Of a DNA stretch of 64,000 bases, positions 26,502 through 44,128 are shown in pieces. Source of the stretch: Catalimonadaceae bacterium JC749 (GTDB lineage: Bacteria > Bacteroidota > Bacteroidia > Cytophagales > Cyclobacteriaceae); NCBI GenBank assembly GCA_021730635.1, contig JAJNNC010000015.1, forward strand, positions 62,001-126,000, written 5' to 3'. Positions within the stretch are counted from its first letter, which is position 1. Each line of letters starts with the position of its first letter. The notes below the pieces were generated by a model that was given only the letters and a program-made list of their open reading frames with translations, searched no databases and had not been told where the DNA came from. The translations under genes were made by a program, and so were the position numbers.

Positions 26502-27128
26502 TCAGCGTAGGCATTTACGCAGATGACTCAACCCTCGATACATGAGCCTTCTGGCAGAAGAGACATGTGAGAAGTTAAAAATTTCTGCGATCTGTGCATA
26601 ACTCAGCCCCTCATAATAGAAATAATAAATAGCTTCCCTTTCTTTCGCATCCAAAGCCTCCAAAGCCTTGTTCAGTTTGTCTAACTGTATCGCTTCAATT
26701 TGACGGTGGATATAGATGGATTCACTGGATAATTCTACAGGAAATTGAGAAAAAGCAAAAGATTCCTGGTACTGACGCTCCCTATTGGCTTTTTTCAGAT
26801 AATCTATGATCCTTCTTCGGAAAGCTTTGAACAAATACATTTTGATAGAATCGGTAGGGCCAAAACCTGCCCTGTTTTTGCGCAGATAGATAAAAAAATC
26901 CTGTAAACAATCTTTCACCAACTCCCGGTCAGTGGAAAACTGACAGCCATAAGAAAAAAGGGAGTTAGCGTAATCCTTATAGATACGTATAAAAGCAGAT
27001 TCATCCCCTTTTGTAAAGTCATCCCAAAGAAGTTTGTCAGATTCTTTATGGTGAATCACTTCGGGTGAAGACCCAGGAGACACAGCAGAGGAATACTGTG
27101 AGGTAGCTGGTTTACCTTCCAATAACAT
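26502..27128 (-). CDS. ECF-type RNA polymerase sigma factor
   Basis: A 208-residue extracytoplasmic-function sigma factor. Region 2 is visible as FTKGDESAFIRIYKDYANSL, then ELVKDCLQDFFIYLRKNRAG and SIKMYLFKAFRRRIIDYLKK. Region 4 is LEALDAKEREAIYYFYYEGL, then SYAQIAEIFNFSHVSSARRL. A FecR-type anti-sigma factor and STN-SusC lie 6.3 kb away on the other strand, the components this class of sigma factor normally works with in Bacteroidota. It is transcribed divergently from the first PQQ dehydrogenase. Pairing with the FecR at 33445 is inference, since in most loci the two genes are adjacent. Confidence 0.92.
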   Translation of the reverse strand: MLLEGKPATSQYSSAVSPGSSPEVIHHKESDKLLWDDFTKGDESAFIRIYKDYANSLFSYGCQFSTDRELVKDCLQDFFIYLRKNRAGFGPTDSIKMYLFKAFRRRIIDYLKKANRERQYQESFAFSQFPVELSSESIYIHRQIEAIQLDKLNKALEALDAKEREAIYYFYYEGLSYAQIAEIFNFSHVSSARRLMYRGLSHLRKCLR

Positions 27129-27655: not shown

Positions 27656-28856
27656 ATGCAGAAAAGAAAAGGTTGCAAGGTGGCTAGTGATCCAGTCTGT
27701 GGAAGCATAGGCTGGCTCTGGCTGCTGCTGCTCTGTCTGGGCTGTGTTAGCACAGCCCGTGAAGAAGCCGGTCAGGTGGCTGCAGGGCAGCACCTGCACT
27801 GGCAGGACTATGGGGGAGGGGCTGACCAGTCCAAATTTGTAGCCCAGAGCTCTATCACCAAAGAGAATGTAGCAGCCCTAAAGCAGGCCTTCTTCTATGC
27901 CACGGCCGATGAACAGGTCTATCAGTTCAATCCCCTGATCGTGGACACTGTGATGTATGTGCTGGCCAAGAACAACTCTTTGGTAGCCCTGCATGCCCAG
28001 ACAGGAGAGGAGCTGTGGATTCATGCCCATTTGCAGGGCATAGCCCGCAGAGGGATCAACTACTGGCAGAGTGCGGATGGACAAGACAAAAGACTGCTGT
28101 TTCAGATCAACAACTATCTGCAGGCTATCAATGCAGAGACCGGAGAGTCTATCCTTTCTTTTGGAGAGCAGGGACTGGTAGACTTACGAGAAGGACTTGG
28201 CAGAGAGGCCAACACTTTGTCCAGGGCTCAGTCAGGAACCCCTGGAAAGATCTTTGAGAACCTCTTGCTGCTAGGTTCTTCCACCGGAGAAGGGTATATG
28301 TCCTCACCAGGCCACCTGAGAGCCTATGATGTGGTGAGTGGCAAGCTGGTCTGGACCTTCCATACCATCCCACAGCCAGGAGAGTATGGCTATGAGACCT
28401 GGCCCAAGGAGGCCTACCAGTATGTGGGAGGGGTCAACACCTGGGGAGAGATCAGTGTGGATGAGCAGAGAGGTATTGCCTACTATCCCTTGGGCTCACC
28501 TACCTATGACTACTATGGAGCAGACCGGAAAGGCAGCAACCTGTTTGCCAACTGTCTGCTGGCCTTGGATGCCAGGACAGGCAAGCGAATGTGGCATTAT
28601 CAGACAGTGCATCATGACTTGTGGGATTATGATCTGACGGCAGCCCCTCAGCTCTTGACAGTCACTCACAAGGGAGAGGAAGTGGAGGTGGTAGCTGTGG
28701 CCAGCAAGCATGGCTTTCTGTTTGTCTTTGACAGGGAAACAGGAGAGGCTTTGTGGCCCATAGAGGAGAGAGCCGTACCCAGCAGTGAGGTACCGGGAGA
28801 GGAGGCCTGGCCTACCCAGCCTTTTCCTACCATCCCGCCCCCCATTTCCAGACAGA
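27656..28856 (+). repeat. Exact 1201-bp direct repeat, copy 1
   Basis: Starts at the A of the PQQ dehydrogenase start codon and runs 1201 bases. Every line compared by eye matches 39749-40949. The bases just upstream differ (CTAAAA against TATC before the ATG), and divergence after GACAGA at the 3' end is immediate. The repeat covers the lipoprotein signal and roughly the first half of the protein. Confidence 0.9.
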
Positions 28857-29962
28857 GCATGACTTCAGCTGATATCACTCCCTTCTTTTTAACCCCGGAA
28901 GAACAGGCAGAATGGAAAACAAAGATCGATGGAATGCAAACCGGTTTCTTTACCCCTCTTTCCCACGAAAAAGAAACCCTGGCCTTGCCAGGGGCTGTGG
29001 GTGGCGTGAACTGGGGTAATACGGCTGCCAATCCGGAAAAAGGAATTATGTATATTTTAAATATTGACTGGCCCTCTTTTTACGGTAAATTGCAAACACG
29101 GGAGCAAATAGAGCAACAAGAAGCATTAGCGGCCTCCGGAGCGATGAATGTTTATCAGAAAAACTGTCAGGCCTGTCATGGGGCAGACCGTTCCGGGGTA
29201 GCCGGGCCTTCACTGGTTGATCTGGGCGAACGGTTAAAATTCACTGAATTCAAACAAGTAGTGATGACTGGAAGAGGAAAAATGCCAGCTTTTGCCCATC
29301 TGAGTGATGGGGAAGTTCGGGAGATATATCGTTATCTGGCGGGCAACAGCTTCAGACCTTATCCTACAGGGCCGGAGGGGGAAGTACCTCTACCTGATGG
29401 TCCGGTCGTGGCTTCCGGGGGGGCTCCCGGTGGACAGGAAATTCGACGCTCGGAAGGGGGGGGCGGCCGTTTTGGCGCTCCTTATCCGGAAGGCTTAGAG
29501 GTGCCTGCCGTGCGCTACTACCATCAGGGATGGGGGTTGGATTATCCCTACCTGATCAGTCCTCCCTGGTCGGAGATCATGGCCTATGACCTGAATGAGG
29601 GTACCATCAAGTGGAGAAGGGCTATCGGTCAGGATCTTGAAGCGGCAGCCCAGGGTGGACAGAACACCGGGGTGCCTCGTGCACAACGCAACGGTATGAT
29701 CGTGACCTCTACCGGATTGGTTTTCTCCACCGCCAAAGATGGTAAAATCTATGCTTTTGATGCCGATACCGGCGAGGAACTCTGGTCACAGGAACTGCCT
29801 ATGGGCACAGAAGGTCTACCCGCAATGTATGAGGTCGATGGCAAACATTACCTGGTCGTTTGTGCTACCTCACCGCTGAAATGGGGAAAGGGCGATGATG
29901 ACAGCCCGTCAGAAAAACCGAATGCGCAGGGAGGGTATGTTGTTTTTGCTTTACCAGAATAA
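27656..29962 (+). CDS. PQQ-dependent dehydrogenase with inserted cytochrome c, copy 1
   Basis: A quinoprotein dehydrogenase of 768 residues anchored as a periplasmic lipoprotein (lipobox LCLGC, Cys30). Propeller blades show PQQ-type tryptophan-docking repeats, for example LVALHAQTGEELW, RAYDVVSGKLVW, LALDARTGKRMWHYQ and IYAFDADTGEELW. A c-type heme site CQACH (504-508) is inserted between the first and second parts of the propeller. It would oxidise a sugar or alcohol and pass electrons to cytochromes. The first 400 codons are identical at nucleotide level to the copy at 39749, and the rest has diverged. The SMP-30 and PVC-type cytochrome genes follow directly. Substrate unknown. Confidence 0.9.
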   Translation: MQKRKGCKVASDPVCGSIGWLWLLLLCLGCVSTAREEAGQVAAGQHLHWQDYGGGADQSKFVAQSSITKENVAALKQAFFYATADEQVYQFNPLIVDTVMYVLAKNNSLVALHAQTGEELWIHAHLQGIARRGINYWQSADGQDKRLLFQINNYLQAINAETGESILSFGEQGLVDLREGLGREANTLSRAQSGTPGKIFENLLLLGSSTGEGYMSSPGHLRAYDVVSGKLVWTFHTIPQPGEYGYETWPKEAYQYVGGVNTWGEISVDEQRGIAYYPLGSPTYDYYGADRKGSNLFANCLLALDARTGKRMWHYQTVHHDLWDYDLTAAPQLLTVTHKGEEVEVVAVASKHGFLFVFDRETGEALWPIEERAVPSSEVPGEEAWPTQPFPTIPPPISRQSMTSADITPFFLTPEEQAEWKTKIDGMQTGFFTPLSHEKETLALPGAVGGVNWGNTAANPEKGIMYILNIDWPSFYGKLQTREQIEQQEALAASGAMNVYQKNCQACHGADRSGVAGPSLVDLGERLKFTEFKQVVMTGRGKMPAFAHLSDGEVREIYRYLAGNSFRPYPTGPEGEVPLPDGPVVASGGAPGGQEIRRSEGGGGRFGAPYPEGLEVPAVRYYHQGWGLDYPYLISPPWSEIMAYDLNEGTIKWRRAIGQDLEAAAQGGQNTGVPRAQRNGMIVTSTGLVFSTAKDGKIYAFDADTGEELWSQELPMGTEGLPAMYEVDGKHYLVVCATSPLKWGKGDDDSPSEKPNAQGGYVVFALPE

Positions 29963-29984
29963 ACTATCAACTATACTTTAATCT

Positions 29985-30869
29985 ATGAGATCCATGAAAA
30001 ACGTAATTGACCTATTTAAACCTTATGGCCTTAGTGCCCTGCTCATCGGTTTGGTACTGATGAGTATGCCTGTCGCAGGACAAAAAGTGAGCCTGGAAAA
30101 AAAATGGGAGACACCCGCAGAATTAAAAGAGCCGGAGTCGGTTATTTATGATCAGACAAATAATGTGTTGTATGTCTCCAACATCAATAATCCGGCAGGG
30201 GGTAAAGATGGCAATGGCTCGATCGGGCGTGTTGCCCTCTCAGGCAAGATAGAAAAAGTGGAATGGGTAGTGGGGGGCATGGACTCTCCCAAAGGTCTGG
30301 GATTGTCCAAAGGGTTGTTGTATGTGGCTGATCTGACCAAAGTGGTAGTCATTGATACCAAAACAGGCAAAGTAAAACAAACTATTCCTGTCGATGACGC
30401 TGGTATGCTCAACGATATTACTGTGGATGCACAGGGGGTCGTCTACATTTCTGATTCAGACAAAAAAAGAGTCTATAGAATAAACAATAACAAGGCTGAA
30501 GTATGGTTTGAAAAAGATCATTTTCAGAAACCCAATGGTTTGCTGGCCCATCAGAATAAATTTTATATGATTGATATGAATGCAGGTATTTTTTATGAAG
30601 TCAACAAAGAAACCAAAGACCTGAAAAAGATTGCAGAAGGCCTGGTAGGGGGCGATGGTATCATTCCGCTGGGCAACGACTTTCTGATCTCAAATTGGAA
30701 CGGAGAGATTTTGCATGTCTCAGCCAACGGAAAGGTTACTAAGCTGATCGATACCAAAGCAGATAAGGTGAATGCCGCGGACATTGCCTACATCCCCGAT
30801 CAGAAATTACTATTAGTGCCTACTTTCTTTGCCAACAAGGTGGTGGCTTATGAGGTAAAAGGAAATTAA
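29985..30869 (+). CDS. SMP-30/gluconolactonase-like periplasmic propeller
   Basis: A 294-residue exported protein with a signal peptide ending near VAGQ. An alternative start is the Met at 29994. Propeller repeats are seen in EPESVIYDQTNNVLYVSNI, DSPKGLGLSKGLLYVADL, LNDITVDAQGVVYISDSD, QKPNGLLAHQNKFYMID and NAADIAYIPDQKLLLVPT. The Glu and Asn/Asp positions resemble the metal site of gluconolactonases. Its place between a PQQ dehydrogenase and a cytochrome protein suggests it hydrolyses the lactone product of the oxidation (inference). It could instead be a non-enzymatic NHL-type propeller. Confidence 0.75.
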   Translation: MRSMKNVIDLFKPYGLSALLIGLVLMSMPVAGQKVSLEKKWETPAELKEPESVIYDQTNNVLYVSNINNPAGGKDGNGSIGRVALSGKIEKVEWVVGGMDSPKGLGLSKGLLYVADLTKVVVIDTKTGKVKQTIPVDDAGMLNDITVDAQGVVYISDSDKKRVYRINNNKAEVWFEKDHFQKPNGLLAHQNKFYMIDMNAGIFYEVNKETKDLKKIAEGLVGGDGIIPLGNDFLISNWNGEILHVSANGKVTKLIDTKADKVNAADIAYIPDQKLLLVPTFFANKVVAYEVKGN

Positions 30870-30913
30870 TGTATCACAAAATACCAGATTGATCAGGCAT
30901 AATCAGCACCCTC

Positions 30914-33256
30914 ATGAATGTACGCTCTTTCATTTTCCTGCTCTTTTCTACGGCATTGGTATTTCAGTGCACCCCTGCCGAAGAAAACGAACAGGATCGT
31001 TTCGATAACCGGCCAGCCTTTAATCCTCATCCGGAACCCACTTATTTGTCGCCGGAAGAAAGTATGAAAACCCTTCACCTGCCCAAGGGGTATCAGGTGG
31101 AATTGGTGGCGAGTGAACCTATGATACAGGAGCCCGTAGCCATTGCCTGGGATGGAAATGGAAGGATGTATGTAGCCGAAATGCTTACCTATATGCAGGA
31201 TGCCGATGCCTCTGGTGAACAGGAACCGGTCAGCAGAATTTCCCGGTTAGAAGATACCGACAACGATGGCAAAATGGACAAGCGTACCATCTTTATCGAT
31301 AGCCTGCTGCTGCCTCGGATGTTGCAGTGTGTAGGGGAAGAACTGCTGGTCAACGAAACCAACACCATTGACCTCTATAGCTACAGAGATACAGATGGCG
31401 ATGGCATAGCAGATGAAAAAAAATTAATCTATCACAATGACCAATATGTGCTGAATGATGCCAACATGGAGCATCAGCGTAGCGGGTTGGATTGGAACCT
31501 GGATAACTGGATGTACGTCACCTACGATCCTGTACGTTTTCGGTATACCAAAGGTACCCTGGTGGCAGACACCCTGCCCAGCGGTTCCGGCGGACAGTGG
31601 GGTGTGACCCATGATAACTATGGAAGGTTGTTCTATTCCAGGGCTGGGGGAGAGATTCCCGCGCTGGGATTTCAGATCAATCCTGCCTATGGCTCCCTCG
31701 ACTTCAAAGATCAATATAGCGCCTCTTTTGCAGAGGTTTGGCCTATCATCGCCACACCGGATGTACAGGGTGGTCCTTTGCGCTTACGGGCCAATGCCAC
31801 ACTGAACCACTTCACCGCTCCCTGCGGACAGTCAGTCTTTCGGGGCGATCGGCTACCCCCCGATTTTATCGGAGATTATATTGTCTGTGAACCGGTAGCC
31901 AGAACCATTCGTCGGGCAGAGCTGGTACAGGATGAGGGAAAAACCCTCTTAGAAAACACCTATGATCAACAGGAATTCATCGCTTCCACCGATATGAATT
32001 TCCGTCCGGTCAATTCGGCCACAGGCCCCGATGGGAATCTTTATATTGTCGATATGCACCGGGGTATCATACAGCAGGGCAACTGGACCAGACCCGGTTC
32101 TTTCCTACGCCAAAAAATAGATAGTATCGGACTGGCAGACAATGTGGGACATGGAAGAATTTATCGGGTGGTGCATGAGGATTATGAGCCAGGCCCCCTA
32201 CCAAGAATGCTGGAAGAATCGGGCAGCGAATTGTTAGCCCACCTCGACCATCCCAACGGTTGGTGGCGCGACAATGCGCAGAAAGAAATTATTGCACGCG
32301 ATGATCAGTCGTTGGTGCCTGCCTTGCAAGAAATGGCCAGGGGAGAACACGCCTTATTCTCAAAAGCTCCCGGACATCTTGGAAGAATACATGCCTTATG
32401 GACCCTGGAAGGATTAGGGGCTATCGATCAGGAAGTATTGGTGGCAGCCCTGAAAGATGAGCACCCCCAGGTAAGGAAGACAGCCGTGTGGATCAGCGAG
32501 CCTTTGTTGAAGGCCAAAAATGAGACGATGATAGCGCAGGTAGGACAGTTGAAGGATGATGAAGACGCCGAGGTACGGGTACAACTCCTGCTCTCCCTTT
32601 TTCAGAGTCAGGCTGAACAAGCGCAAGCCATCGTGAATGAGATTTTAGAGAATAATCCCAAAAATGAAATGCTGGTCGCTACCCATGCGGCACTGGAAAA
32701 AAACGAAGACGTCAGTACGTTTGGCAGCAAGCTGGGAGCTTTGAAAGAAACCGACAGACATCTGATCTTACAAGGCGCTACTATTTTCAAATCCCTTTGT
32801 GCCAGTTGTCATGGAGCGGATGGCAAAGGGTTGGCTATCGGGGGAACGCAACAGGCGGCACCCCCGCTGGAAGGCTCCGGCCGCTTGGCCTTTTTGGAGA
32901 AAAATAATACGATCAGAATCTTGCTGCATGGTTTAACCGGGCCTGTCGATGGAAAAGAATATTCCAGTGTGATGCCGGCTATGGAAGCCAACAGCGATGA
33001 GTGGATCGCCTCGGTGGTCAGTTATATCCGGTTCGAGTTTGGCGGACGGCCACCCCGCAGACCCGGAGAGATTCCCGGGATGGCGCCCAAGGCTGTCAAC
33101 AGTGCGTCAGGCTTTCCCGAAAGAAAAACGGTTTCTCCTGTCGTCACACCCGAAGAGATTAAAAAGATCAGGGAGGAAAGTGCAGGCAGGAAGAAACCCT
33201 GGACACTGGAGGAACTTGACCGGCAGAAACAGCAGGACGACGCCATCCTCTATTAA
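30914..33256 (+). CDS. PVC-type heme-binding dehydrogenase-like lipoprotein with HEAT repeats
   Basis: A periplasmic lipoprotein of 780 residues (Cys19, VFQC). The N-terminal half is a soluble-dehydrogenase-like propeller typical of planctomycete-style membrane-bound dehydrogenases (YQVELVASEPMIQEPVAIAW, YVAEMLTYM, SRLEDTDNDGKMDKRTIF). A HEAT-repeat region follows at about 450-610 and a cytochrome c site CASCH at 629-633. Such proteins are thought to oxidise sugars and relay electrons, but few members are characterised. It probably works with the PQQ dehydrogenase and SMP-30 protein encoded just upstream. A related 890-residue protein is encoded at 56499. Confidence 0.85.
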   Translation: MNVRSFIFLLFSTALVFQCTPAEENEQDRFDNRPAFNPHPEPTYLSPEESMKTLHLPKGYQVELVASEPMIQEPVAIAWDGNGRMYVAEMLTYMQDADASGEQEPVSRISRLEDTDNDGKMDKRTIFIDSLLLPRMLQCVGEELLVNETNTIDLYSYRDTDGDGIADEKKLIYHNDQYVLNDANMEHQRSGLDWNLDNWMYVTYDPVRFRYTKGTLVADTLPSGSGGQWGVTHDNYGRLFYSRAGGEIPALGFQINPAYGSLDFKDQYSASFAEVWPIIATPDVQGGPLRLRANATLNHFTAPCGQSVFRGDRLPPDFIGDYIVCEPVARTIRRAELVQDEGKTLLENTYDQQEFIASTDMNFRPVNSATGPDGNLYIVDMHRGIIQQGNWTRPGSFLRQKIDSIGLADNVGHGRIYRVVHEDYEPGPLPRMLEESGSELLAHLDHPNGWWRDNAQKEIIARDDQSLVPALQEMARGEHALFSKAPGHLGRIHALWTLEGLGAIDQEVLVAALKDEHPQVRKTAVWISEPLLKAKNETMIAQVGQLKDDEDAEVRVQLLLSLFQSQAEQAQAIVNEILENNPKNEMLVATHAALEKNEDVSTFGSKLGALKETDRHLILQGATIFKSLCASCHGADGKGLAIGGTQQAAPPLEGSGRLAFLEKNNTIRILLHGLTGPVDGKEYSSVMPAMEANSDEWIASVVSYIRFEFGGRPPRRPGEIPGMAPKAVNSASGFPERKTVSPVVTPEEIKKIREESAGRKKPWTLEELDRQKQQDDAILY

Positions 33257-33444
33257 AAGTTTCTAGAGGAATGGCAGAACCATTGCAAGCGTGAATTTCC
33301 ATAAGAAGTAATACCTTGCCAGAAGGGCAATAGAGCCATCCTTACACAATCATGGATAGAGGGAATTTTTTTATTCAAAAAAAATCAAAAATTACGGTAT
33401 CATATTTTTATTTTATCCCTTATTAAATTAGAAAGCTTAAAAAC

Positions 33445-34494
33445 TTGAAAAACGAAGAATCAGACATATTCTCCTATTTAATTACCAACAAGGATTTTCG
33501 GGATTGGGTATTGAATCCAACCCACGAAAGAAGCTATTATTGGAAAAAATGGATGGATGAACACCCAACGGCCATCGTCGAGGTGAAAAAAGCCAGGGAG
33601 TTTATAGAGCGAATGAATTTTCATAAAGAACAGCTTTCCACTGTTGAGTTGGACGATATGTTGGAAAAAATCATTGCCAACGAAAATCCAGCCTTTGAAC
33701 CCGAACACTATATTTACGGGTCTCCTCAAAAGCCTACCTTATACAGTATGGGGCAGTGGATGAAGGTGGCAGCCATTCTCCTGATCTGTTTTCTGTCTGC
33801 CATTCTGATTGACAGACTGGCACCTGTCAAAGTGGTGCAGCCTGCCCCGGTTGCCGTGGTCTGGAAAACTACCGATAACCCGAAAGGTATCAAATCTAAA
33901 ATTACCCTGCCCGATGGTACCATTGTGATGCTCAATTCGGCCAGCCAGTTAAAATATCCACAGTATTTTTCCGATTCTCTGCGCTTGGTAGAGCTTAAGG
34001 GAGAAGCCTTCTTCGAGGTGGTACGCGATGTCGACCGGCCTTTTATCATTCAAACTGAAAGAATGACAACCGAGGTTTTGGGAACCTCATTCAACATCAA
34101 AGCCTATGATGGCACGGAAAAGCAATCCATCGCTGTGGTGACCGGTAGGGTGAAGGTAAGTAATGCAGCGGGTGAAGCTGCTATCTTAAATCCTAATGAA
34201 ATGGGCTTGATCAGCAAAGCCGATAGCATTAACAAGACCACCTTTGACCTGAAGGAAGTCACCGGCTGGAAAGATGGTATCATTACTTTCAAAAGCGCTA
34301 CCTTCAAAGACATAGAAGAGCAATTGTCTCTATGGTATGGCGTCGATTTTGTGAAAGGAAAAGGCTTCCGGATGGAAAATGTCTATACCGGAGAATTTAC
34401 CAATGAAACGCTGGAAAATGTGATGAATGGTATTGCCTATTCATCCGGGTTTCAGTATCGAATTTCTGATAATAAAGTATTTGTCTATAAATAG
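33445..34494 (+). CDS. FecR-family anti-sigma factor
   Basis: An inner-membrane regulator of 349 residues. A cytoplasmic N-terminal domain that would hold a sigma factor precedes a single membrane helix at about 107-123 (VAAILLICFLSAILIDRLA). The periplasmic FecR domain (TLPDGTIVMLNSASQLKYP, LKGEAFFEVVRD, VLGTSFNIKAYD) is followed by a C-terminal DUF4974 domain. TTG at 33445 is the likely start, because the first in-frame ATG would remove the N-terminal 36 residues. It is followed by a short leader region and the STN-SusC gene. The matching sigma factor is probably the minus-strand gene at 26502. Confidence 0.92.
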   Translation: MKNEESDIFSYLITNKDFRDWVLNPTHERSYYWKKWMDEHPTAIVEVKKAREFIERMNFHKEQLSTVELDDMLEKIIANENPAFEPEHYIYGSPQKPTLYSMGQWMKVAAILLICFLSAILIDRLAPVKVVQPAPVAVVWKTTDNPKGIKSKITLPDGTIVMLNSASQLKYPQYFSDSLRLVELKGEAFFEVVRDVDRPFIIQTERMTTEVLGTSFNIKAYDGTEKQSIAVVTGRVKVSNAAGEAAILNPNEMGLISKADSINKTTFDLKEVTGWKDGIITFKSATFKDIEEQLSLWYGVDFVKGKGFRMENVYTGEFTNETLENVMNGIAYSSGFQYRISDNKVFVYK

Positions 34495-34513
34495 AACCTT
34501 ACAACAACCTATT

Positions 34514-34555
34514 ATGAAAAAACACAAAAAAATCAAAAAAAGAAAGGCCGGCTAG
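34514..34555 (+). CDS. Short lysine-rich leader ORF (13 codons)
   Basis: ATG at 34514 opens a frame coding for MKKHKKIKKRKAG and stopping at TAG (34553-34555). It lies 19 bases after the FecR stop and about 100 bases before the SusC start. The stop codon is exactly the loop of the GC-rich hairpin at 34546-34562. The composition (eight Lys/Arg of 13) and position suggest a regulatory leader peptide or a small basic protein. Whether it is translated is unknown. Confidence 0.45.
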   Translation: MKKHKKIKKRKAG

Positions 34556-34610
34556 GCCGGCCCCGAAATCTCTCTCATCCTTAAGAATTGGCCGTTCCTC
34601 CGGGATGAGA
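34546..34610 (+). promoter_or_regulatory. Two consecutive hairpins between FecR and SusC genes
   Basis: Hairpin 1: GGCCGGC (34546-34552), loop TAG, GCCGGCC (34556-34562), a very stable 7-bp GC stem. No T-run follows, so it is not a standard terminator. Hairpin 2: TCTCATCC (34573-34580) with GGATGAGA (34603-34610). The pair could form an attenuator or protect the SusC mRNA 5' end after processing. Function is inferred. Confidence 0.5.
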
Positions 34611-34652
34611 TCTACTCTATTAATTTTAGGATAAAATTAACTTTACAAAGTT

Positions 34653-37600
34653 ATGAAAAACTCTTTACTTATAAAGACATTGCTTATGTCGAAATTCGCT
34701 TTTTATGGCATTTTGCTTCAATGTTGTACCATAACGATACTGATGGCCTCCGTCAGTGGTTTGGGGCAGAGGCAAAGTATCAACGACGTTATAGTGTCTA
34801 TTGAGGTAGACAGCGAAAGACTGACGGAAGTATTTCAGCAGTTAGAAAATATTACTGAATTTAAATTTGCTTATAATCACCGCAATCTGGTCGAGCAGCA
34901 GAAAGTAACGCTTTCCGCCCGAAACAAATCCCTGGCCAATGTCCTCTTTATGATTTCACAGCAAACCAAACTGAGCTTTAAGAGAATTAATGAGAATATC
35001 CATGTGCTCAAGTTTGAGAAAGAAGAGGCTGAGCGGGTGGAGGAAGTCATGGATGCCGTGGCTGTGACCATCAATGGCAAAGTGACAGATGGAGAAACCG
35101 GAGATCCGGTGCCGGGTGTCAACGTGATCGCCAAAGGGACGACCAACGGAACGATTACCAATTTAGAGGGTTCTTATACGCTGAACGTTAGCGATGAGGT
35201 CACCACTTTAATCTTCTCATCCATTGGGTATGTATCACAGGAAGTTGCTATTCAGGGAAGAACAACCATCGACGTAGCCCTGGTGACCGATATCAAGTCT
35301 CTGGAAGAAGTAGTGGTAGTAGGTTACGGTACGCAAAAAAGGAGCGATGTAACCGGTGCCATAGGATCTGTGAGTTCTAAAGAAATAGAAGACGAACCTG
35401 TCATTCAGGTGGGACAGGCCCTGCAGGGAAAAGTGGCCGGCTTGCAGGTTTCTCAAAATTCAGGAGCACCCGGTTCCGGTCTGCTGATCCGTGTCCGGGG
35501 AACAGGAACGGTCAACAACTCTGAACCTTTATACGTCATCGACGGCAATCCGAATGCGAATCCCCTGGATTTGGTACCTGAGCAGATAGAAAGTATACAG
35601 GTGCTGAAAAGTGCGAGTGCGGCGGCCATCTATGGCGCCCAGGGAGCGAATGGCGTTATCCTGATCACCACCAAGCAGGGGAAGGCCGGGGCTTCTCAAC
35701 TGGATGTAAACTTCTCACAAGGATGGCAGCAGTTGCAGAGAAATCTGCCCATGACCAATGCCAGGGAGTATGCGATATTGTACAATGAAGGCTTGGTCAA
35801 TGCCGGACAGGCACCTATCTATCCCAATCCTGATGCTTTGGGGGAAGGTACCGACTGGCAAAAAGAAGTTTTCCGGACAGCACCCATGACCGATATTTCC
35901 GTATCCGCCAGTGGAGGAAGTGAATCCAGTAAATTCTACTTTTCAGCAGGGTATGAAAATCAGGAGGGTATTGTGAAGAATACTTCTTTTGACAGAGTGA
36001 ACCTGCGTATTAACTCTTCTCATAATATTACGCCTGCCATCCGGGTGGGACAAAATCTATCCGGTAGTTTAGCCAAATACGCGCAAATTACAGAGTTCCA
36101 ATTTGGTTCTGTACTGGGAAATACCCTGACGGCTAATCCTGAGGTTCCGGTAAAGATGCCGGATGGAGGATGGGGATACTCCGAAACTTCCCTGAATTCT
36201 ACCAACCCCCTGGCTACCATTCATTATACCAACAATGATACCCGTCGACCTGTCATTAATGGGAACGTATATGCCGATATCACCTTTTTCAAAGACTTTA
36301 TATTCCGCTCCCAGTTTAACGTCAACCTGGGATTTTCAGAGAATACTATTTTCAATCCATATTATATAATCTCTTCCCGGTTTCAGAATTTAGTGGCCAA
36401 CTTAGAGGAAAGAACGAACCGTTTCAGAGAATACAGCTGGGCCAATACCGTGACCTATCAGAAAGCTGTTGGCAATCATAATTTTGACGTACTGGGCGGG
36501 ATAACCACCCAGGAGTCTTATCGACAGTTCATTTCTGCCTACGCAGCAGGTCTTCCCGAAAACGCCACCGACAATCCTAATCTGCGGCATCTGAACCTTT
36601 CTACCCAGGGCAACAGAGTGGCAGGCGACGCTGGGGAGTGGGGCATCTTGTCATTCCTGGGCCGCGTGAACTACAACTATGGGGGTAAATATTTTACCAC
36701 CGTCAACTTCCGGGCCGATGGTTCTTCCAGGTTTGGTGAAAACAACAAATTTGGTTACTTCCCGTCCTTTTCACTGGGATGGAAAATTTCAGAAGAGCCT
36801 TTCATCCAAAACCAGAGCTGGATTAACAATTTGATGATACGAGGTGGTTGGGGTTCTCTAGGAAACCAAGGTTCTTTACCGAATTACGCTTTTGCCTACC
36901 TGGTCACGCCCAATATCAACTATTCGTTTGGTTGGCCGCAACAGGTGATCAGAGGGCAGGCCCCTACGGGTTTGGGTAACCCAGATTTGAAATGGGAAGC
37001 CACCCAGGAAACTAACCTCGGTTTTGATTTTATGGGGTTTGAAGGAAAAGTGACTGCTTCCTTTGACTGGTATCATAAAAAGACCACGGATATGCTTCTG
37101 CAAGTGCCTGTGATTCAGTATTCAGGGATACAGGAAGCACCCTATGTGAATGGTGGCAATGTGGTCAACAAAGGGGTTGAGCTCATGCTGGGTTATCAAA
37201 ACACTACAGCCTCTGGCTTCAACTATAATATTTCCGGTAACATCGCCCATAACAAGAATGAAGTAACGCAGCTCAGCAACAGTGGGTCAGCCATCTATTA
37301 CAGAGCCAGTTTTATCGGATTAGTGAATGTGACGGAAGTGGGTAGCCCAATTGCTTCTTTTTATGGCTGGAAAACCGATGGCTTGTTCCAGAATCAGGAA
37401 GAGATAGATGCTCACGCTTTTCAGAGTAGCGGAACGGCTCCCGGTGATATCCGTTTTGTTGATTTGAATGAGGATGGGATCATCAACGCGGAAGATCAGA
37501 CCATCATTGGCAATCCCTGGCCTACATTCACCTATGGGATCAACTCGACCTTTTCATACAAAGGATTTGATGTCAGATTGCAATTACAAGGTGTGCAGGG

Positions 37601-38015
37601 AAATGATATCTATATGGCTCTAAAATTTAGAACGGAAGGTTCCAACTTCTTTAACTACACCAAAAATGTGTGGGAAAATCGGTGGACAGGACCGGGTACC
37701 AGCAATGACGTTCCACGCATGACGACCAACGATCCCAACAACAATATGAGATCTTCAGAGTATTATGTGGAAGATGGTTCTTATCTGAGAGTCAGAAATT
37801 TCCAGATTGGATACAGAGTGCCGCAAAGTGTCGTTAATCTACGCAATGTCAGAATTTATGGCTCTGTCCAAAATGCACTGACTTTTACCAAGTATCCTGG
37901 ATTTGATCCTGAAATCGGGACAAACCGGGACGGTAATCCGCTCTATATCGGTTTGGATGAGACCAACTATCCTGTGCCCCGCATTTATACTTTTGGTGTT
38001 AACATAGGAATTTAA
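34653..38015 (+). CDS. SusC/RagA TonB-dependent transporter with STN signalling domain
   Basis: An outer-membrane importer of 1120 residues. After a signal sequence (about 1-39) comes an STN domain (about 47-120), which contacts periplasmic FecR. It is followed by a carboxypeptidase-regulatory-like domain (138-215), the SusC hallmark EEVVVVGYG, a plug (QVGQALQGKVAGLQVSQNSG) and the barrel. The STN domain means that substrate uptake can trigger the FecR/sigma cascade and so self-induce the locus. The SusD partner begins 55 bases downstream. The imported compound is probably oxidised by the flanking PQQ dehydrogenases (inference). Confidence 0.95.
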   Translation: MKNSLLIKTLLMSKFAFYGILLQCCTITILMASVSGLGQRQSINDVIVSIEVDSERLTEVFQQLENITEFKFAYNHRNLVEQQKVTLSARNKSLANVLFMISQQTKLSFKRINENIHVLKFEKEEAERVEEVMDAVAVTINGKVTDGETGDPVPGVNVIAKGTTNGTITNLEGSYTLNVSDEVTTLIFSSIGYVSQEVAIQGRTTIDVALVTDIKSLEEVVVVGYGTQKRSDVTGAIGSVSSKEIEDEPVIQVGQALQGKVAGLQVSQNSGAPGSGLLIRVRGTGTVNNSEPLYVIDGNPNANPLDLVPEQIESIQVLKSASAAAIYGAQGANGVILITTKQGKAGASQLDVNFSQGWQQLQRNLPMTNAREYAILYNEGLVNAGQAPIYPNPDALGEGTDWQKEVFRTAPMTDISVSASGGSESSKFYFSAGYENQEGIVKNTSFDRVNLRINSSHNITPAIRVGQNLSGSLAKYAQITEFQFGSVLGNTLTANPEVPVKMPDGGWGYSETSLNSTNPLATIHYTNNDTRRPVINGNVYADITFFKDFIFRSQFNVNLGFSENTIFNPYYIISSRFQNLVANLEERTNRFREYSWANTVTYQKAVGNHNFDVLGGITTQESYRQFISAYAAGLPENATDNPNLRHLNLSTQGNRVAGDAGEWGILSFLGRVNYNYGGKYFTTVNFRADGSSRFGENNKFGYFPSFSLGWKISEEPFIQNQSWINNLMIRGGWGSLGNQGSLPNYAFAYLVTPNINYSFGWPQQVIRGQAPTGLGNPDLKWEATQETNLGFDFMGFEGKVTASFDWYHKKTTDMLLQVPVIQYSGIQEAPYVNGGNVVNKGVELMLGYQNTTASGFNYNISGNIAHNKNEVTQLSNSGSAIYYRASFIGLVNVTEVGSPIASFYGWKTDGLFQNQEEIDAHAFQSSGTAPGDIRFVDLNEDGIINAEDQTIIGNPWPTFTYGINSTFSYKGFDVRLQLQGVQGNDIYMALKFRTEGSNFFNYTKNVWENRWTGPGTSNDVPRMTTNDPNNNMRSSEYYVEDGSYLRVRNFQIGYRVPQSVVNLRNVRIYGSVQNALTFTKYPGFDPEIGTNRDGNPLYIGLDETNYPVPRIYTFGVNIGI

Positions 38016-38070
38016 ATCAATTTCAGGGGTCATGTACCCTATCCCAACCTTCATCTAACGATCTAAAACT

Positions 38071-39576
38071 ATGAAACGAGTATCTTATTTTATATGTACC
38101 CTACTTTGCTGGATGATCCTCGGATGTGAAGACATTCTGGAAAAGGAGCCACTGGCATTGATTGATATTTCAAACGCTTATATCTCACCCTCTGATGCAG
38201 CCCGGGCTGTTACGGCAGCGTATCATCCGCTTCAGGCAAACAATTGGTGTTGTGGTGCCTGGGGTAACAGTGGTTTTATGCATTGGGTGCTTGCTAATGT
38301 GGCTTCCGATGATACCGAAAAAGGTGGAGAATCCGGTTCCGATCAGTTGTATGCGCAGCAGGTTTCACTCTTCAATATCCCAGCCGATAATGATGCGACC
38401 CGGTTTGCCTGGTCTTCTCAGTATATCGGTGTTCGTCGGGCCAACCTGGTATTGGACAACGTGCCTGATATTGAGATGGATGCTGCCCTAAAAGAACGTT
38501 ATCTGGCTGAAGCAAAATTTTTAAGAGCCTGGTACTACATCAACCTGGTGAAAACGTTTGGAGATGTACCCCTGATCCTTTCTTCCGAAATGGAATCCTA
38601 TGAGATGACAAGAACCCCTAAACAACAGGTGTACGATCAGATCATCAAAGATTTGCAGGAAGCAGAGGCTGTATTGCCTTTGGCGAGTGAATACACTTCT
38701 TCTGATCGGGGCCGGGCTACCAAAGGAGCAGCCCAGGCTTATTTAGGAAAAGTCTATCTGTACCTGAACGATTTCCCGATGGCAGAACAGTGGTTTGGTA
38801 CTGTCATTAATTCTAATGAATATGCTTTGGACCCCAACTACTTTGATATGTTCCTACGGGCCGGTGAAAACAGTACAGAACACATTTTTCAGGCACAATT
38901 TCACAATGATCAGGGTGCTCAACCTGCCAATAACCAGTTAAATATTGTTTTCGGTAGCAGAGCCAGAAACGGTTGGGGATTCAATTGCCCCACCCAGGAT
39001 TTTGTGGATGCTTTTGAAGAAGGCGATCCACGCCTGAATCATACCGTCTACAAAGAAGGCGATTTGATGCCCGATGGACTCACTGCCAATGTGGGAAATA
39101 CACCCACAGGCTATTTAAATAAAAAATATTATGTACCTGAATATGAGAGAGTGGGGGGGGCTTTACAACCTGGCCGTGACGACATCTACATGCGTCTGGG
39201 CAAAGTGTTGTTGTGGTATGCGGAGGCTGCCAATGAGAATGGTAATACACAGGCGGCCCTCAATGCACTGAACATGATCCGTGAGCGTGCCAGAGAAGGA
39301 AATCCGGACATTCTGCCTGCTATTACAGAAACCAACCAGGATGCCCTGAGGGAAATTATCTGGCAGGAGCAAAGAGTAGAATTCGGACAGGAATTCGAAC
39401 GCTTTTTTGAATTGGTAAGACAAGGTCGTGCCGGTCAGGTGCTCAGAGCTTATGCTGAAAAATATAACACCGCAAAGGGGTCAGGCTTCAGAGATGGTGT
39501 CAACGAAATATTCCCCATACCACAGTCGGAAATCAGCCTGAGTGGGGGGCTTCTTGAACAAAACCCTGGTTACTAA
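38071..39576 (+). CDS. SusD/RagB-family lipoprotein
   Basis: Surface-exposed binding partner of the SusC at 34653, 501 residues. The lipobox ILGC gives Cys19. SusD features include DAARAVTAAYHPLQANNWCC, the TPR-like AEAKFLRAWYYINLVKTFGD, the helix pair RGRATKGAAQAYLGKVYLYL and the C-terminal IWQEQRVEFGQEFERFFELV. It ends with a strong intrinsic terminator 21 bases downstream, so FecR-SusC-SusD form a unit separate from the second PQQ gene. Ligand unknown. Confidence 0.95.
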   Translation: MKRVSYFICTLLCWMILGCEDILEKEPLALIDISNAYISPSDAARAVTAAYHPLQANNWCCGAWGNSGFMHWVLANVASDDTEKGGESGSDQLYAQQVSLFNIPADNDATRFAWSSQYIGVRRANLVLDNVPDIEMDAALKERYLAEAKFLRAWYYINLVKTFGDVPLILSSEMESYEMTRTPKQQVYDQIIKDLQEAEAVLPLASEYTSSDRGRATKGAAQAYLGKVYLYLNDFPMAEQWFGTVINSNEYALDPNYFDMFLRAGENSTEHIFQAQFHNDQGAQPANNQLNIVFGSRARNGWGFNCPTQDFVDAFEEGDPRLNHTVYKEGDLMPDGLTANVGNTPTGYLNKKYYVPEYERVGGALQPGRDDIYMRLGKVLLWYAEAANENGNTQAALNALNMIRERAREGNPDILPAITETNQDALREIIWQEQRVEFGQEFERFFELVRQGRAGQVLRAYAEKYNTAKGSGFRDGVNEIFPIPQSEISLSGGLLEQNPGY

Positions 39577-39596
39577 TATGATGATTAGCGTATAAT

Positions 39597-39637
39597 GGGA
39601 ATGAAGGCATCTTATGACCTTCTATTCCCTTTTTTTT
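39597..39637 (+). terminator. Rho-independent terminator after SusD
   Basis: GGGAATGAAGG at 39597-39607 pairs with CCTTCTATTCCC at 39618-39629 (one bulged T) around a 10-base loop. Eight T residues follow immediately. This is the clearest intrinsic terminator in the window and ends the FecR-SusC-SusD unit. Confidence 0.88.
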
Positions 39638-39748
39638 GCTTGAATTATCCAGGTTATATTTTAGAAAATAATCAATCCTGTGTTGTCCACTTCTAAGTCA
39701 AGTCAGTAGGTATTCAAACAAGCATCATCCATTGAGAGGAGAAGTATC

Positions 39749-40949
39749 ATGCAGAAAAGAAAAGGTTGCAAGGTGGCTAGTGATCCAGTCTGTGGAAGCA
39801 TAGGCTGGCTCTGGCTGCTGCTGCTCTGTCTGGGCTGTGTTAGCACAGCCCGTGAAGAAGCCGGTCAGGTGGCTGCAGGGCAGCACCTGCACTGGCAGGA
39901 CTATGGGGGAGGGGCTGACCAGTCCAAATTTGTAGCCCAGAGCTCTATCACCAAAGAGAATGTAGCAGCCCTAAAGCAGGCCTTCTTCTATGCCACGGCC
40001 GATGAACAGGTCTATCAGTTCAATCCCCTGATCGTGGACACTGTGATGTATGTGCTGGCCAAGAACAACTCTTTGGTAGCCCTGCATGCCCAGACAGGAG
40101 AGGAGCTGTGGATTCATGCCCATTTGCAGGGCATAGCCCGCAGAGGGATCAACTACTGGCAGAGTGCGGATGGACAAGACAAAAGACTGCTGTTTCAGAT
40201 CAACAACTATCTGCAGGCTATCAATGCAGAGACCGGAGAGTCTATCCTTTCTTTTGGAGAGCAGGGACTGGTAGACTTACGAGAAGGACTTGGCAGAGAG
40301 GCCAACACTTTGTCCAGGGCTCAGTCAGGAACCCCTGGAAAGATCTTTGAGAACCTCTTGCTGCTAGGTTCTTCCACCGGAGAAGGGTATATGTCCTCAC
40401 CAGGCCACCTGAGAGCCTATGATGTGGTGAGTGGCAAGCTGGTCTGGACCTTCCATACCATCCCACAGCCAGGAGAGTATGGCTATGAGACCTGGCCCAA
40501 GGAGGCCTACCAGTATGTGGGAGGGGTCAACACCTGGGGAGAGATCAGTGTGGATGAGCAGAGAGGTATTGCCTACTATCCCTTGGGCTCACCTACCTAT
40601 GACTACTATGGAGCAGACCGGAAAGGCAGCAACCTGTTTGCCAACTGTCTGCTGGCCTTGGATGCCAGGACAGGCAAGCGAATGTGGCATTATCAGACAG
40701 TGCATCATGACTTGTGGGATTATGATCTGACGGCAGCCCCTCAGCTCTTGACAGTCACTCACAAGGGAGAGGAAGTGGAGGTGGTAGCTGTGGCCAGCAA
40801 GCATGGCTTTCTGTTTGTCTTTGACAGGGAAACAGGAGAGGCTTTGTGGCCCATAGAGGAGAGAGCCGTACCCAGCAGTGAGGTACCGGGAGAGGAGGCC
40901 TGGCCTACCCAGCCTTTTCCTACCATCCCGCCCCCCATTTCCAGACAGA
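39749..40949 (+). repeat. Exact 1201-bp direct repeat, copy 2
   Basis: Identical to 27656-28856 as far as can be compared by eye, in the same orientation and starting at the same ATG. The two starts are 12,093 bases apart. The repeats bracket the end of PQQ gene 1, the SMP-30, PVC cytochrome, FecR, SusC and SusD genes. Confidence 0.9.
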
Positions 40950-42082
40950 CCATCACCCCGGAGGATTTGTCCGATAGCGATTTAACCCCTGAAGAAAAGG
41001 AAGCCTGGGAAGTCTTTATGACTGCAGAAGAAAGAGAAACATGGAGAAAGAGGCTTGACACCGCCCGCATCGGATTGTTTACACCCCTTTCTACTACCCA
41101 TGAAGTGGTCTCTATGCCAGGGTCTACCGGAGGAGTGAATCTGGGTAATACAGCGGCTAATCCGGAAAAAGGAATCATGTATGTGATGAGCCAGTCTTAC
41201 CCTTCCATCTATGGTAAGCTGCAGACACAGCAAGAACTAGAGCAAATCGATGCTGTAGCGGCTGGTGGAGGGCAGAGTGTTTATGACAAAAATTGTCAGG
41301 TGTGTCATGGGGCAGACCGTTCCGGTGGTGTAGGGCCTTCCTTACTGGAGCTGGGGCAACGGCTGAGTTTTAGCGATTTTAAACAGGTTGTCGTTGCCGG
41401 TAGAAATAAAATGCCGGCATTTGCGCATATCGAAGACGATGAGCTAAGAAATTTATACCTGTTTCTGGCGGGTAATATCAGAAGGCCTTTGATGGCCGCT
41501 GCCGGGGAATTAGTGTTGCCTGATGGTCCCGTAGTGGCTTCAGGAGGAGCGCCCGGCGGACTGAAAGAACGTGAAGTCACCCTCAGAGGTGGTCGTTTTG
41601 GTGCACCCTATCCCGAAGGCGTGGAGGTTCCTTCGGACCGCTATTTCATTGAGGGATATGGGTTAGGGTATCCTTACCTGATGAAACCTCCTTGGTCGGA
41701 GATCATGGCCTATGACCTGAACCAGGGAACAGTGAAATGGAAAAGGCCATTAGGCAAAGGAAAAGGAGGCGTGAATACGGGGTTACCGAGAGGTTCGCAA
41801 CGGAATGGGATGATTGTGACATCTACCGGACTGGTGTTTTCAACGGCTGGTGATGGTAAAATCTATGCCTTTGATGCAGATACCGGCGAGGAACTGTGGT
41901 CTCAGGAACTGCCGATGAAATCGGAAGGATTGCCCTCCATGTATGCGGTAGACGGAAAACATTACTTGGTCGTATGTGCTACGACACCGCCAGTTTACTG
42001 GGGACGTGAGACGGAGGAGACCCAGACGGAGGCTGACGAAAAGCCCCAGGGAGGGTATGTCGTTTTTGCATTGCCTGATTAG
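39749..42082 (+). CDS. PQQ-dependent dehydrogenase with inserted cytochrome c, copy 2
   Basis: A 777-residue periplasmic quinoprotein lipoprotein (Cys30), the partner of the gene at 27656. Codons 1-400 are identical in DNA to copy 1. From residue 401 the two differ: this copy has an extra Glu/Asp-rich segment (TPEDLSDSDLTPEEKEAW) before the heme site CQVCH at 516-520, and different C-terminal propeller blades (AYDLNQGTVKWKRP, IYAFDADTGEELW). The diverged half probably sets a different substrate or electron acceptor, with a shared export and N-terminal module. It is preceded by its own intergenic region after a terminator, so it has a separate promoter. Confidence 0.9.
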   Translation: MQKRKGCKVASDPVCGSIGWLWLLLLCLGCVSTAREEAGQVAAGQHLHWQDYGGGADQSKFVAQSSITKENVAALKQAFFYATADEQVYQFNPLIVDTVMYVLAKNNSLVALHAQTGEELWIHAHLQGIARRGINYWQSADGQDKRLLFQINNYLQAINAETGESILSFGEQGLVDLREGLGREANTLSRAQSGTPGKIFENLLLLGSSTGEGYMSSPGHLRAYDVVSGKLVWTFHTIPQPGEYGYETWPKEAYQYVGGVNTWGEISVDEQRGIAYYPLGSPTYDYYGADRKGSNLFANCLLALDARTGKRMWHYQTVHHDLWDYDLTAAPQLLTVTHKGEEVEVVAVASKHGFLFVFDRETGEALWPIEERAVPSSEVPGEEAWPTQPFPTIPPPISRQTITPEDLSDSDLTPEEKEAWEVFMTAEERETWRKRLDTARIGLFTPLSTTHEVVSMPGSTGGVNLGNTAANPEKGIMYVMSQSYPSIYGKLQTQQELEQIDAVAAGGGQSVYDKNCQVCHGADRSGGVGPSLLELGQRLSFSDFKQVVVAGRNKMPAFAHIEDDELRNLYLFLAGNIRRPLMAAAGELVLPDGPVVASGGAPGGLKEREVTLRGGRFGAPYPEGVEVPSDRYFIEGYGLGYPYLMKPPWSEIMAYDLNQGTVKWKRPLGKGKGGVNTGLPRGSQRNGMIVTSTGLVFSTAGDGKIYAFDADTGEELWSQELPMKSEGLPSMYAVDGKHYLVVCATTPPVYWGRETEETQTEADEKPQGGYVVFALPD

Positions 42083-42199: not shown

Positions 42200-44128
42200 A
42201 TGAAGTTCTTTAGTCTGTCTTTTGTTTTCTCGTGTTTGGCTGTCGTTACCTTTGCCCAGTCAGTAGATACCTTTGAAACCAGTCTGACCTTTATGCCGGA
42301 TGATACAGTGGAAGCCACCAGCCTTGATCCCTGGCAGGTAATCGGGGACGCAGATTGGCAAGCCCGGAATGGAGAACTGATAGGAACCGCCAAAGCAGGA
42401 AGCAGTGGGTGGTTGGTGTATGACAGTGCCTACCAGGATATTGGTTTCCATGCTCTATTTAAAAACACCGGTAACAGCGAAACGGGTATCCTTTTCCGAT
42501 TGGAAAAAAACGGAGATGGCATGAAAGGGGTATTTATTTCTATCAAAGAAGAAGTGCTGCCCTACCAGGTAACGCTGGATGCCCAAGGGAAAGAGTTAAC
42601 CCGTGAGAAACTCAGATATGCCGGTGGCATATGGTATCGTTTGGCTCCACCACCTGTGGAAGAAGACGATGCCCAGGCTCCCGGAGGAAACAGAATACCG
42701 CCCCGACCGAAACCTCCTGTAGATTTGCCGGTGACACCACCCAATACAGACCTTCGTCCGGGAGAATGGAACCAGATTGAAATTTTTATGGATCTGAACG
42801 TCATCAGAACCTTCCTCAATGATGGCAGTGAGATCGGTGGTGCCGTTGATGACACTACCGAAGCAAATACTGGAATCCATGGCTACGGTCCGTTCGCCCT
42901 GTATGTGGGAGGGGCAGGAGAAGTACGATTTAAAGATATTATGCTGAAAGACATTTCTGTGAGAGAAACGCCCGAAGAAGAAATCTCCTCTCGATTTACC
43001 ATGCAACGTATCAATGATATGTACTATTCATGGGCAGCGGATGCCGCCGATTTTAACAGAGATGGCCATTTGGATGTAGTGGCTGGTCCTTACATTTATT
43101 ATGGTCCAGATTTTACAAAACATAAAGAAATTTTCCCTGCCATCACCGGTAGCCCTTCGCTGGAGTTTCCTTACAACCGGGTGCAGGATACCTACGATTT
43201 TAACAACGACGGTTGGCCAGATGTCTTGAGCAGTGCTTTTTCAACAACCCTGTACATCAATCCCAAAGGAGAGTCCAGACGATGGAAAAGCTACAATATT
43301 CTTCCCGATGTATCGCAAAGTGAAATCACCGATTTTGTAGACCTCGACCAGGATGGCAGGCCGGAATTGGTATACTCGGGAAATGGGTCAGTAAGGTATG
43401 CGAAACCCAGGGCGGAAGATCCTACCCAGCCTTGGGAAGAGTTTACTGTTTCTGAACAAGGCTATGGGATGTCTCATGGTATCGGAACCGGTGATATCAA
43501 TGGCGATGGTCGGATAGATATACTCAATGCGGTAGGTTGGTGGGAGCAGCCTGAGGCTTTGGATGATGAAAGTCGGTGGGAATACCACCCGGTAGCTTTT
43601 GGCCGTTATGGCCATCGGGCCAGAGGAATCGGGGGGAGTCTGATGGCCGTCTATGATGCGAACGGGGATGGCCTGAACGATGTGGTCACCAACTTAAATG
43701 CGCATGGATTTGGGTTTGCCTGGTATGAGCAACGTCGGGATGATGATGGCAATATTACGTTTGAAAGACACATGTTGAGTGACGACTATTCCGAAAAAGG
43801 GGTAGGGGATGTTACTTTTTCACAACCCCATGGAGCAACCTTTGCGGATATCGATCAGGATGGAGTGAAAGACTTTATTGTGGGTAAACGCTACTTTACA
43901 CACCTGGATAATTATTATGATCCGGATCCCTACAGTCCACCTGTATTGTATTGGTACCGCACGGTCAGGAATCCCGATGCGCCAGGGGGAGCTGAGTTTG
44001 TACCCGAACTCATCCACAACCGTTCCGGCGCAGGTTCAGAGATCACAGCGGTAGACCTGAACAAAGATGGGGCAGTAGACATTATTACCTCTACCAACGT
44101 AGGAACTTTTATCTTCTGGAATAAGTAA
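42200..44128 (+). CDS. DUF1080 (3-keto-disaccharide hydrolase-like) domain fused to FG-GAP propeller
   Basis: A 642-residue exported protein with signal peptide ending FAQ (20). The first 240 residues form a concanavalin-like DUF1080 domain (WQVIGDADWQARNGELIGTA, GNSETGILFRLEKNGDGM, RPGEWNQIEIFMDLN). The second part is a calcium-binding FG-GAP/VCBS propeller with repeated Asp-rich loops: DFNRDGHLDV, DFNNDGWPDV, DLDQDGRPEL, DINGDGRIDI, DANGDGLNDV, DIDQDGVKDF and DLNKDGAVDI. Some DUF1080 proteins hydrolyse 3-keto-glycosides, which would fit with nearby sugar oxidation. The propeller may bind a glycan or protein partner. Enzyme activity here is inferred. Confidence 0.82.
   Translation: MKFFSLSFVFSCLAVVTFAQSVDTFETSLTFMPDDTVEATSLDPWQVIGDADWQARNGELIGTAKAGSSGWLVYDSAYQDIGFHALFKNTGNSETGILFRLEKNGDGMKGVFISIKEEVLPYQVTLDAQGKELTREKLRYAGGIWYRLAPPPVEEDDAQAPGGNRIPPRPKPPVDLPVTPPNTDLRPGEWNQIEIFMDLNVIRTFLNDGSEIGGAVDDTTEANTGIHGYGPFALYVGGAGEVRFKDIMLKDISVRETPEEEISSRFTMQRINDMYYSWAADAADFNRDGHLDVVAGPYIYYGPDFTKHKEIFPAITGSPSLEFPYNRVQDTYDFNNDGWPDVLSSAFSTTLYINPKGESRRWKSYNILPDVSQSEITDFVDLDQDGRPELVYSGNGSVRYAKPRAEDPTQPWEEFTVSEQGYGMSHGIGTGDINGDGRIDILNAVGWWEQPEALDDESRWEYHPVAFGRYGHRARGIGGSLMAVYDANGDGLNDVVTNLNAHGFGFAWYEQRRDDDGNITFERHMLSDDYSEKGVGDVTFSQPHGATFADIDQDGVKDFIVGKRYFTHLDNYYDPDPYSPPVLYWYRTVRNPDAPGGAEFVPELIHNRSGAGSEITAVDLNKDGAVDIITSTNVGTFIFWNK

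Follow-up and report, generated by a model that had tools for sequence, protein, structure and literature searches.

Two PQQ dehydrogenase genes of Catalimonadaceae bacterium JC749 share an identical front half, probably through recurrent partial gene conversion

The window analyzed here, a 64,000-nucleotide stretch of the draft genome of Catalimonadaceae bacterium JC749 (G000; 8,001,652 bp in 86 contigs; contig JAJNNC010000015.1, positions 62,001 to 126,000), carries two pyrroloquinoline quinone (PQQ) dehydrogenase genes, g1 (27656..29962, + strand) and g2 (39749..42082, + strand), whose front halves are identical. Comparison of the two copies of this shared block (27656..28856 and 39749..40949, both on the + strand) revealed 1201 bp with 0 mismatches, beginning at the A of the ATG and limited on each side by a differing base, exactly as a preliminary description of the stretch had reported. 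The block starts lie 12,093 bp apart in direct orientation. Apart from the block, one exact direct repeat of at least 25 bp was found in the window: 29 bp common to the back halves of g1 and g2 (29567-29595 = 41693-41721), which could be a short old tract or a chance match in a conserved stretch. A search of the whole 8.0-Mb genome found two full-length copies of the block, both inside the window, and no third; six other matches were partial and 65-87% identical.

Both open reading frames (ORFs) are intact, encoding 768 amino acids (aa) in g1 and 777 in g2. Their back halves are merely homologous, as previously described, with 67.0% nucleotide (nt) and 64.3% aa identity. At fourfold degenerate sites the two genes differed at 0/179 positions in codons 26-400, compared with 70/127 in the 3' halves. 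Judged by these sites, the likeness of the blocks is far beyond what chance and purifying selection would produce, and purifying selection cannot be its sole cause because the synonymous sites are identical too. The figure of 100% rests on a draft assembly, and a value of, for example, 99.8% would also be conceivable.

Both products scored above the curated cut-offs for a PQQ propeller (PF01011, 534 bits in g1 and 520.9 in g2) and for cytochrome c (PF13442, 51 and 47.3 bits), and both also matched PF13360. The g1 product fell below the curated NCBIfam cut-offs for the glucose/quinate/shikimate PQQ dehydrogenases (TIGR03074, 348.1 vs 832.65 bits) and for the methanol/ethanol family (TIGR03075, 213.6 vs 480.05 bits). 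By these scores g1 is a relative of the two big subfamilies rather than a member of either. Both genes are predicted to encode PQQ dehydrogenases of the lipoprotein type that contain a cytochrome c insert. The block encodes the signal sequence, in which a lipobox-like LCLGC with Cys30 was recognized by eye, and the first part of the propeller to codon 400 (PF01011 covers residues 49-513 of g1). This part includes the motif HHDLWDYD, which in an alignment with the quinohemoprotein alcohol dehydrogenase 1yiq falls on the WDY motif of that enzyme and whose D324 we take to be the catalytic base of the quinoprotein.

The four best PDB sequence matches (1yiq, 1kv9, 1kb0, and 8gy2) are quinohemoprotein alcohol dehydrogenases, which likewise combine a PQQ propeller with a cytochrome c. 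In g1, however, the cytochrome c domain lies inside the propeller sequence (29147..29338, + strand; PF13442 at residues 498-561 of 768) with a propeller segment after it, whereas it is C-terminal in 1yiq and 1kv9; in g2 the corresponding domain inside the propeller occupies 41267..41467 (+ strand; PF13442 at 507-573). Structure prediction for g2 from nine sequences was poor and worst in the C-terminal half (mean predicted local distance difference test score 60.3, with 318/777 residues below 50). The first four fold matches of this low-confidence model were the same four PDB entries in a different order, which is at most consistent with a quinoprotein fold.

The 3' halves of g1 and g2 differ in the propeller, in the linker, where g2 has a 12-residue insertion, and in the inserted cytochrome c domain. 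The preliminary description had rightly recognized two full-length quinoproteins, but the differences that it placed in the C-terminal propeller blades extend to the linker and the cytochrome c. Nor do its "different catalytic ends" fit the sequence, given that HHDLWDYD with the presumed catalytic Asp lies in the shared half. The predicted catalytic core is expected to be common to g1 and g2, the differences falling in the linker, in the cytochrome c, and in the final part of the propeller. Directly adjoining the block in g1 is a divergence island of codons 401-475 (28856..29080, + strand), delimited by the site counts and topology tests described below; its counterpart in g2, placed by alignment, comprises codons 401-487 (40949..41209, + strand) and contains the 12-residue insertion at about 40976-41011. 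We refer to genes without and with this insertion as type a (g1) and type b (g2), respectively.

The same pair occurs at locus L083 of the genome G113, which belongs to another genus and consists of one contig of 7.1 Mb; copy G113a occupies the first position there and G113b the second. Gene order in L083 is that of JC749: extracytoplasmic function (ECF) sigma factor, copy a, DUF7133 gene, FecR, SusC, SusD, copy b, and FG-GAP gene. In the window, the ECF-type sigma factor gene lies divergently upstream of g1 (26502..27128, - strand; PF08281, PF04542) and has a 73% aa match in L083. Downstream of g1, all on the + strand, are an SMP-30/BamB-like gene (29985..30869; PF13360, PF08450), for which tblastn at E ≤ 1e-10 gave no match in L083, and, between g1 and g2, the syntenic gene for a DUF7133 protein with cytochrome c (30914..33256; PF23500, PF00034). 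These are followed by genes for a FecR-like anti-sigma protein (33445..34494; PF04773, PF16344), syntenic in G113, a SusC-like TonB-dependent receptor (34653..38015; PF13715, PF07715, PF00593; 83% aa in G113), and, directly upstream of g2, a SusD-like protein (38071..39576; PF07980, PF14322; 84% aa in G113), a combination that is usual for Bacteroidota uptake loci. Directly downstream of g2 lies a gene for an FG-GAP/3-keto-disaccharide hydrolase-domain protein (42200..44128, + strand; PF13517, PF06439); by tblastn, this is the same neighbor in G113, in the genome G397, and in three Confluentibacter loci. Elsewhere in the window, a single ORF (14909-17617) fuses an N-acetylneuraminate epimerase-like kelch domain (PF24996) with a sodium:solute symporter (PF00474).

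G113a and G113b showed 95.8% nt identity in the front half and 64.4% in the back half, with 18/171 fourfold sites differing in codons 26-400 vs 59/110 in the 3' half; the contrast between synonymous sites inside and outside the block, a comparison proposed in the preliminary description, thus recurs in a relative. Front-half identity between the two genomes was 73.5%, in contrast to 100% and 95.8% within them, and in that same half g1 and G113a differed at 64/124 fourfold sites. Five neighboring genes differed between JC749 and G113 at 59-70% of fourfold sites, which marks the separation of the two genera as ancient and the identities within the blocks as recent. Of the 40 codons that differ between the front halves of G113a and G113b, 33 are synonymous, and the differences are clustered: the longest identical run, which starts within the signal sequence, measures 233 bp (P = 0.0024 in a shuffling test). 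More than one conversion event, of differing ages, is likely in the front half of G113. Upstream, g1 and G113a share stretches of 64 bp (E 1e-19) and 41 bp (E 4e-5), which have no counterpart between g1 and G113b.

In whole-protein surveys of overlapping sets of 59, 390, 395, 145, and 395 genomes, only JC749 and G113 showed two closely related copies within a single locus. Among 390 genomes of the family, 27 had a match at E ≤ 1e-160, and G113 was the one genome beside JC749 with a pair at one locus. Other cases may exist, because the sets of 390, 395, and 395 were draws from larger groups, the cut-offs (1e-160, 1e-200, and 1e-230) were strict, and at most two candidates per genome were taken among the matches listed. 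No closer relative of JC749 with the pair was found: its genus holds one other genome, which had no match at E ≤ 1e-160. In the three-genome genus of G113, a match was found in G113 only. The two copies in G016 lie on separate contigs and bear no trace of conversion, and G031 contains additional members of the family, spaced by a few kb, that are 41-53% identical to g2.

Two single genes deserve mention beside these. In G397 (L084), a gene without the 12-residue insertion stands in the second position, after SusC/SusD and before the FG-GAP gene, and no first-position copy was present in the 17 kb read. In G1001, from another class of the phylum, a gene (L100:11683-14056) without the insertion, as judged by eye, is 64-66% identical to g1 and nearer to it than most of the same-family relatives listed, and no second copy was found within the 37 kb covered. 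Horizontal transfer of the G1001 gene is possible.

To describe the history of the pair along its length, informative sites were counted according to whether they join g1, g2, G113a, and G113b as orthologs (by position), within genomes, or in the other way. Topology tests by segment used 11 sequences, the 26-sequence trees took part of the genes found, and the table of pairwise identities and fourfold differences covered nine genes. Codons 1-400 gave 0 ortholog, 293 within-genome, and 0 other sites. The ortholog tree was rejected for codons 41-400 (approximately unbiased (AU) test, p = 6.6e-6; p = 3e-97 with 26 sequences). Codons 401-475 gave 23 ortholog, 9 within-genome, and 2 other sites; here the within-genome tree was rejected (AU p = 0.008) and the ortholog tree accepted (p = 0.123).

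g2 and G113b share the 12-residue insertion, a 5-residue deletion, and an extra residue before QRNGM, and all three indels are missing from g1, G113a, G397, and Confluentibacter flavum. The 26-sequence tree of the C-terminal half grouped g1 with G113a (support 88) and g2 with G113b (support 70). In the cytochrome c segment (codons 476-560) we counted 11 ortholog, 33 within-genome, and 7 other sites, and the ortholog tree was rejected (AU p = 0.0035); this grouping by genome, at far lower identity, suggests older conversions. For codons 561-768 both topologies were accepted. As a side observation, GGVNWGN of g1 reads GGVNLGN in g2 (codons 401-487); G113a, G113b, G397, and Confluentibacter flavum all retain the Trp, which might, as a guess, act near PQQ.

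The duplication that gave rise to g1 and g2 is most likely older than the split of the genera, because both positions are syntenic, the indels are common to both genomes, and codons 401-475 reject the within-genome tree. Since the pair would be older than the split and codons 1-400 nevertheless group by genome, the front halves appear to have been homogenized separately in each lineage after it.

The homogenized part ends at nearly the same codon in both genomes, codon 401 in JC749 and about codon 396 in G113 (g1 numbering). To its right lies an indel-rich linker with 52-64% DNA identity in codons 401-450, which is too low for efficient recombination. This right edge is predicted both by lacking homology and by selection for two linker types, and the data do not separate the two. 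At the left edge, the regions upstream of g1 and g2 showed no significant similarity (best E 0.44), in line with the preliminary description. The start codon, which that description had treated as a telling boundary, loses this meaning on closer comparison: over the roughly 98 bp next to the ATG, even g1 and G113a showed no significant similarity, and the two G113 copies have ATGCAAAGA in common at the 5' start, differ in codons 4-9, and are identical only from after about codon 9. A tract filling the homologous part ends at the ATG because homology between the copies ends there, and the ATG is retained by selection in any case.

We consider it very probable that recurrent partial gene conversion between an old pair of paralogs explains the shared front half. 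The direct evidence comprises the exact identity, the synonymous contrast, synteny, the shared indels, the conflicting trees of the segments, and the second genus. The old pair flanks the FecR/SusC/SusD cassette in the same orientation, and in the proposed course of events RecA-type homologous recombination without crossover would repeatedly transfer the initial ~400 codons from one gene to its partner. The tract would run from the start codon to codon ~400, where the old, indel-rich linker of low identity begins, and each round would renew the identity used by the next, so that the front half would evolve in concert within each genome. Codons 401-475 would escape conversion and so remain of two types, a and b. 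The inserted cytochrome c bears signs of older conversion, and the remaining back half is mixed. Selection may keep the unconverted linker in two forms that suit different substrates or partners, although a plain lack of homology would look alike. Donor and direction are unreadable from the sequence because the g1 and g2 copies are identical. The very recent partial conversion that the preliminary description had offered as one of its readings is thereby supported and can be extended, the same half having been homogenized separately in G113.

Several observations weigh against this interpretation. The pair was found in two genomes, so recurrence here means two lineages, and the sequence of JC749 is that of the draft assembly. 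Taken as a whole, the back half gave more within-genome than ortholog sites at the nucleotide level (79 vs 59, with 19 other) and nearly equal counts at the protein level (25 ortholog, 23 within-genome, 2 other). Neither topology was rejected for it (ortholog p = 0.103 and within-genome p = 0.144 with 11 sequences; within-genome p = 0.076 with 26), and the best tree of the whole C-terminal half with 11 sequences joins G113a to G1001 instead of g1 (support 56). The limits of the back-half segments were chosen after the quartet counts had been seen, which makes the p-values for these parts somewhat optimistic. In addition, the aa identity of g1 and g2 in the C-terminal half slightly exceeds that of the positional counterparts (61.3% and 61.6%), and therefore older conversions would be needed there too. 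A clear ortholog signal comes from codons 401-475, from the indels, and from the gene order.

Among the alternatives, a single recent partial duplication or fusion, in which a ready-made export and N-terminal module was placed before a different C-terminal half, fares best and is still unlikely. It would account for identity that begins at the ATG below unrelated upstream regions, and the preliminary description had raised it as a reusable module joined to different catalytic ends. However, G113 has the same two C-terminal types in the same positions, indels included, each with a full front half, so the fusion would need to have occurred twice with a nearly equal edge; the JC749 genome, moreover, holds no further full copy of the block.

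Marginally less probable is a scenario in which each genus recently duplicated the whole gene and the back half of one copy was then replaced or diverged fast. It would yield front halves grouped by genome, and the excess of within-genome sites over the whole back half is in its favor. It nevertheless requires the gene to have been duplicated twice into the same pair of positions, with the same second-position indels each time, and recent duplication in both genera would group the whole back half by genome, which codons 401-475 do not do. Back-half fourfold differences within the genomes (the 70/127 and 59/110 given above) are also near those between positional counterparts of the two genomes (76/119 and 74/114).

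An assembly artefact, in which collapse or wrong resolution of a repeat made the front halves identical, had been named as a competing explanation and is suggested by the draft state of JC749. We regard it as very unlikely, since single-contig G113 shows the same pattern at 95.8% rather than 100%, which collapse would not give, and an assembler would not merge copies that are 33% divergent. Purifying selection alone, to which the greater conservation of the front-half protein between genomes might point (g1 and G397 share 72.6% aa in the front half vs 58.2% in the back half), can be practically dismissed, as g1 and g2 have no fourfold difference in a half where g1 and G113a differ at more than half of such sites and where other paralog pairs differ at 66/100 (G016a/b) and 60/96 (G113a/c).

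Partial conversion between paralogs is a known class, to which g1 and g2 belong. Wang et al. (2015, PMC4632066) describe mtrA-1/mtrA-2 of methanogens, in which one domain is under long-lasting conversion beside a divergent other domain. As in g1/g2, these are paralogs in one operon with one domain homogenized per species, the other part long divergent, and gene order kept; they differ in being archaeal and in that one copy gained a transmembrane domain by fusion, whereas in g1 and g2 homology extends over both halves and it is a linker within a propeller enzyme that stays unconverted. Conversion of domain 3 of RF1/RF2, described by Ishikawa et al. (2015, PMC4530459) for Bacteroidia and Chloroflexi, likewise affected a common region of bacterial paralogs with differing specificity elsewhere and was studied with likelihood trees. 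There, two independent cases in different groups ran in opposite directions, whereas the g1/g2 type would involve two related genera with one or more events apiece, the event in the window being very recent. In GOT1p1/GOT1p2 of Tigriopus, high-divergence regions similarly persist under apparently ongoing conversion, according to Willett (2013, PMC3728101), whose study differs in treating animal genes with population-level data. Among the open-licence papers listed, none dealt with conversion in PQQ dehydrogenases by its title or abstract start; a Trichoderma review and a Methylococcus genome paper each contain the words quinoprotein and gene conversion once. As far as that literature shows, the enzyme family is new for this class, as are the recurrence of a nearly equal edge in a second genus and the short candidate specificity segment beside that edge.

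More speculatively, and with rather little confidence, g1 and g2 might form a working pair in which a common PQQ core and heme relay are kept for a shared partner or co-assembly and the loop of codons 401-475, with the 12-residue insertion in type b, sets the substrate. Conversion would then be a standing process, not noise, that spreads improvements of the core to both enzymes, and selection would clear tracts that overrun the loop. The direct repeats could also allow excision of the 12-kb FecR/SusC/SusD cassette, which would place the back half of g2 behind the promoter of g1.

As a clean natural example in which conversion halts at almost the same codon in both genera, the pair would show where a quinoprotein exchanges sequence freely and where it does not. 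The 75-87 residues after the block are a candidate specificity segment, and full-length gene trees of these PQQ dehydrogenases can mix two histories.

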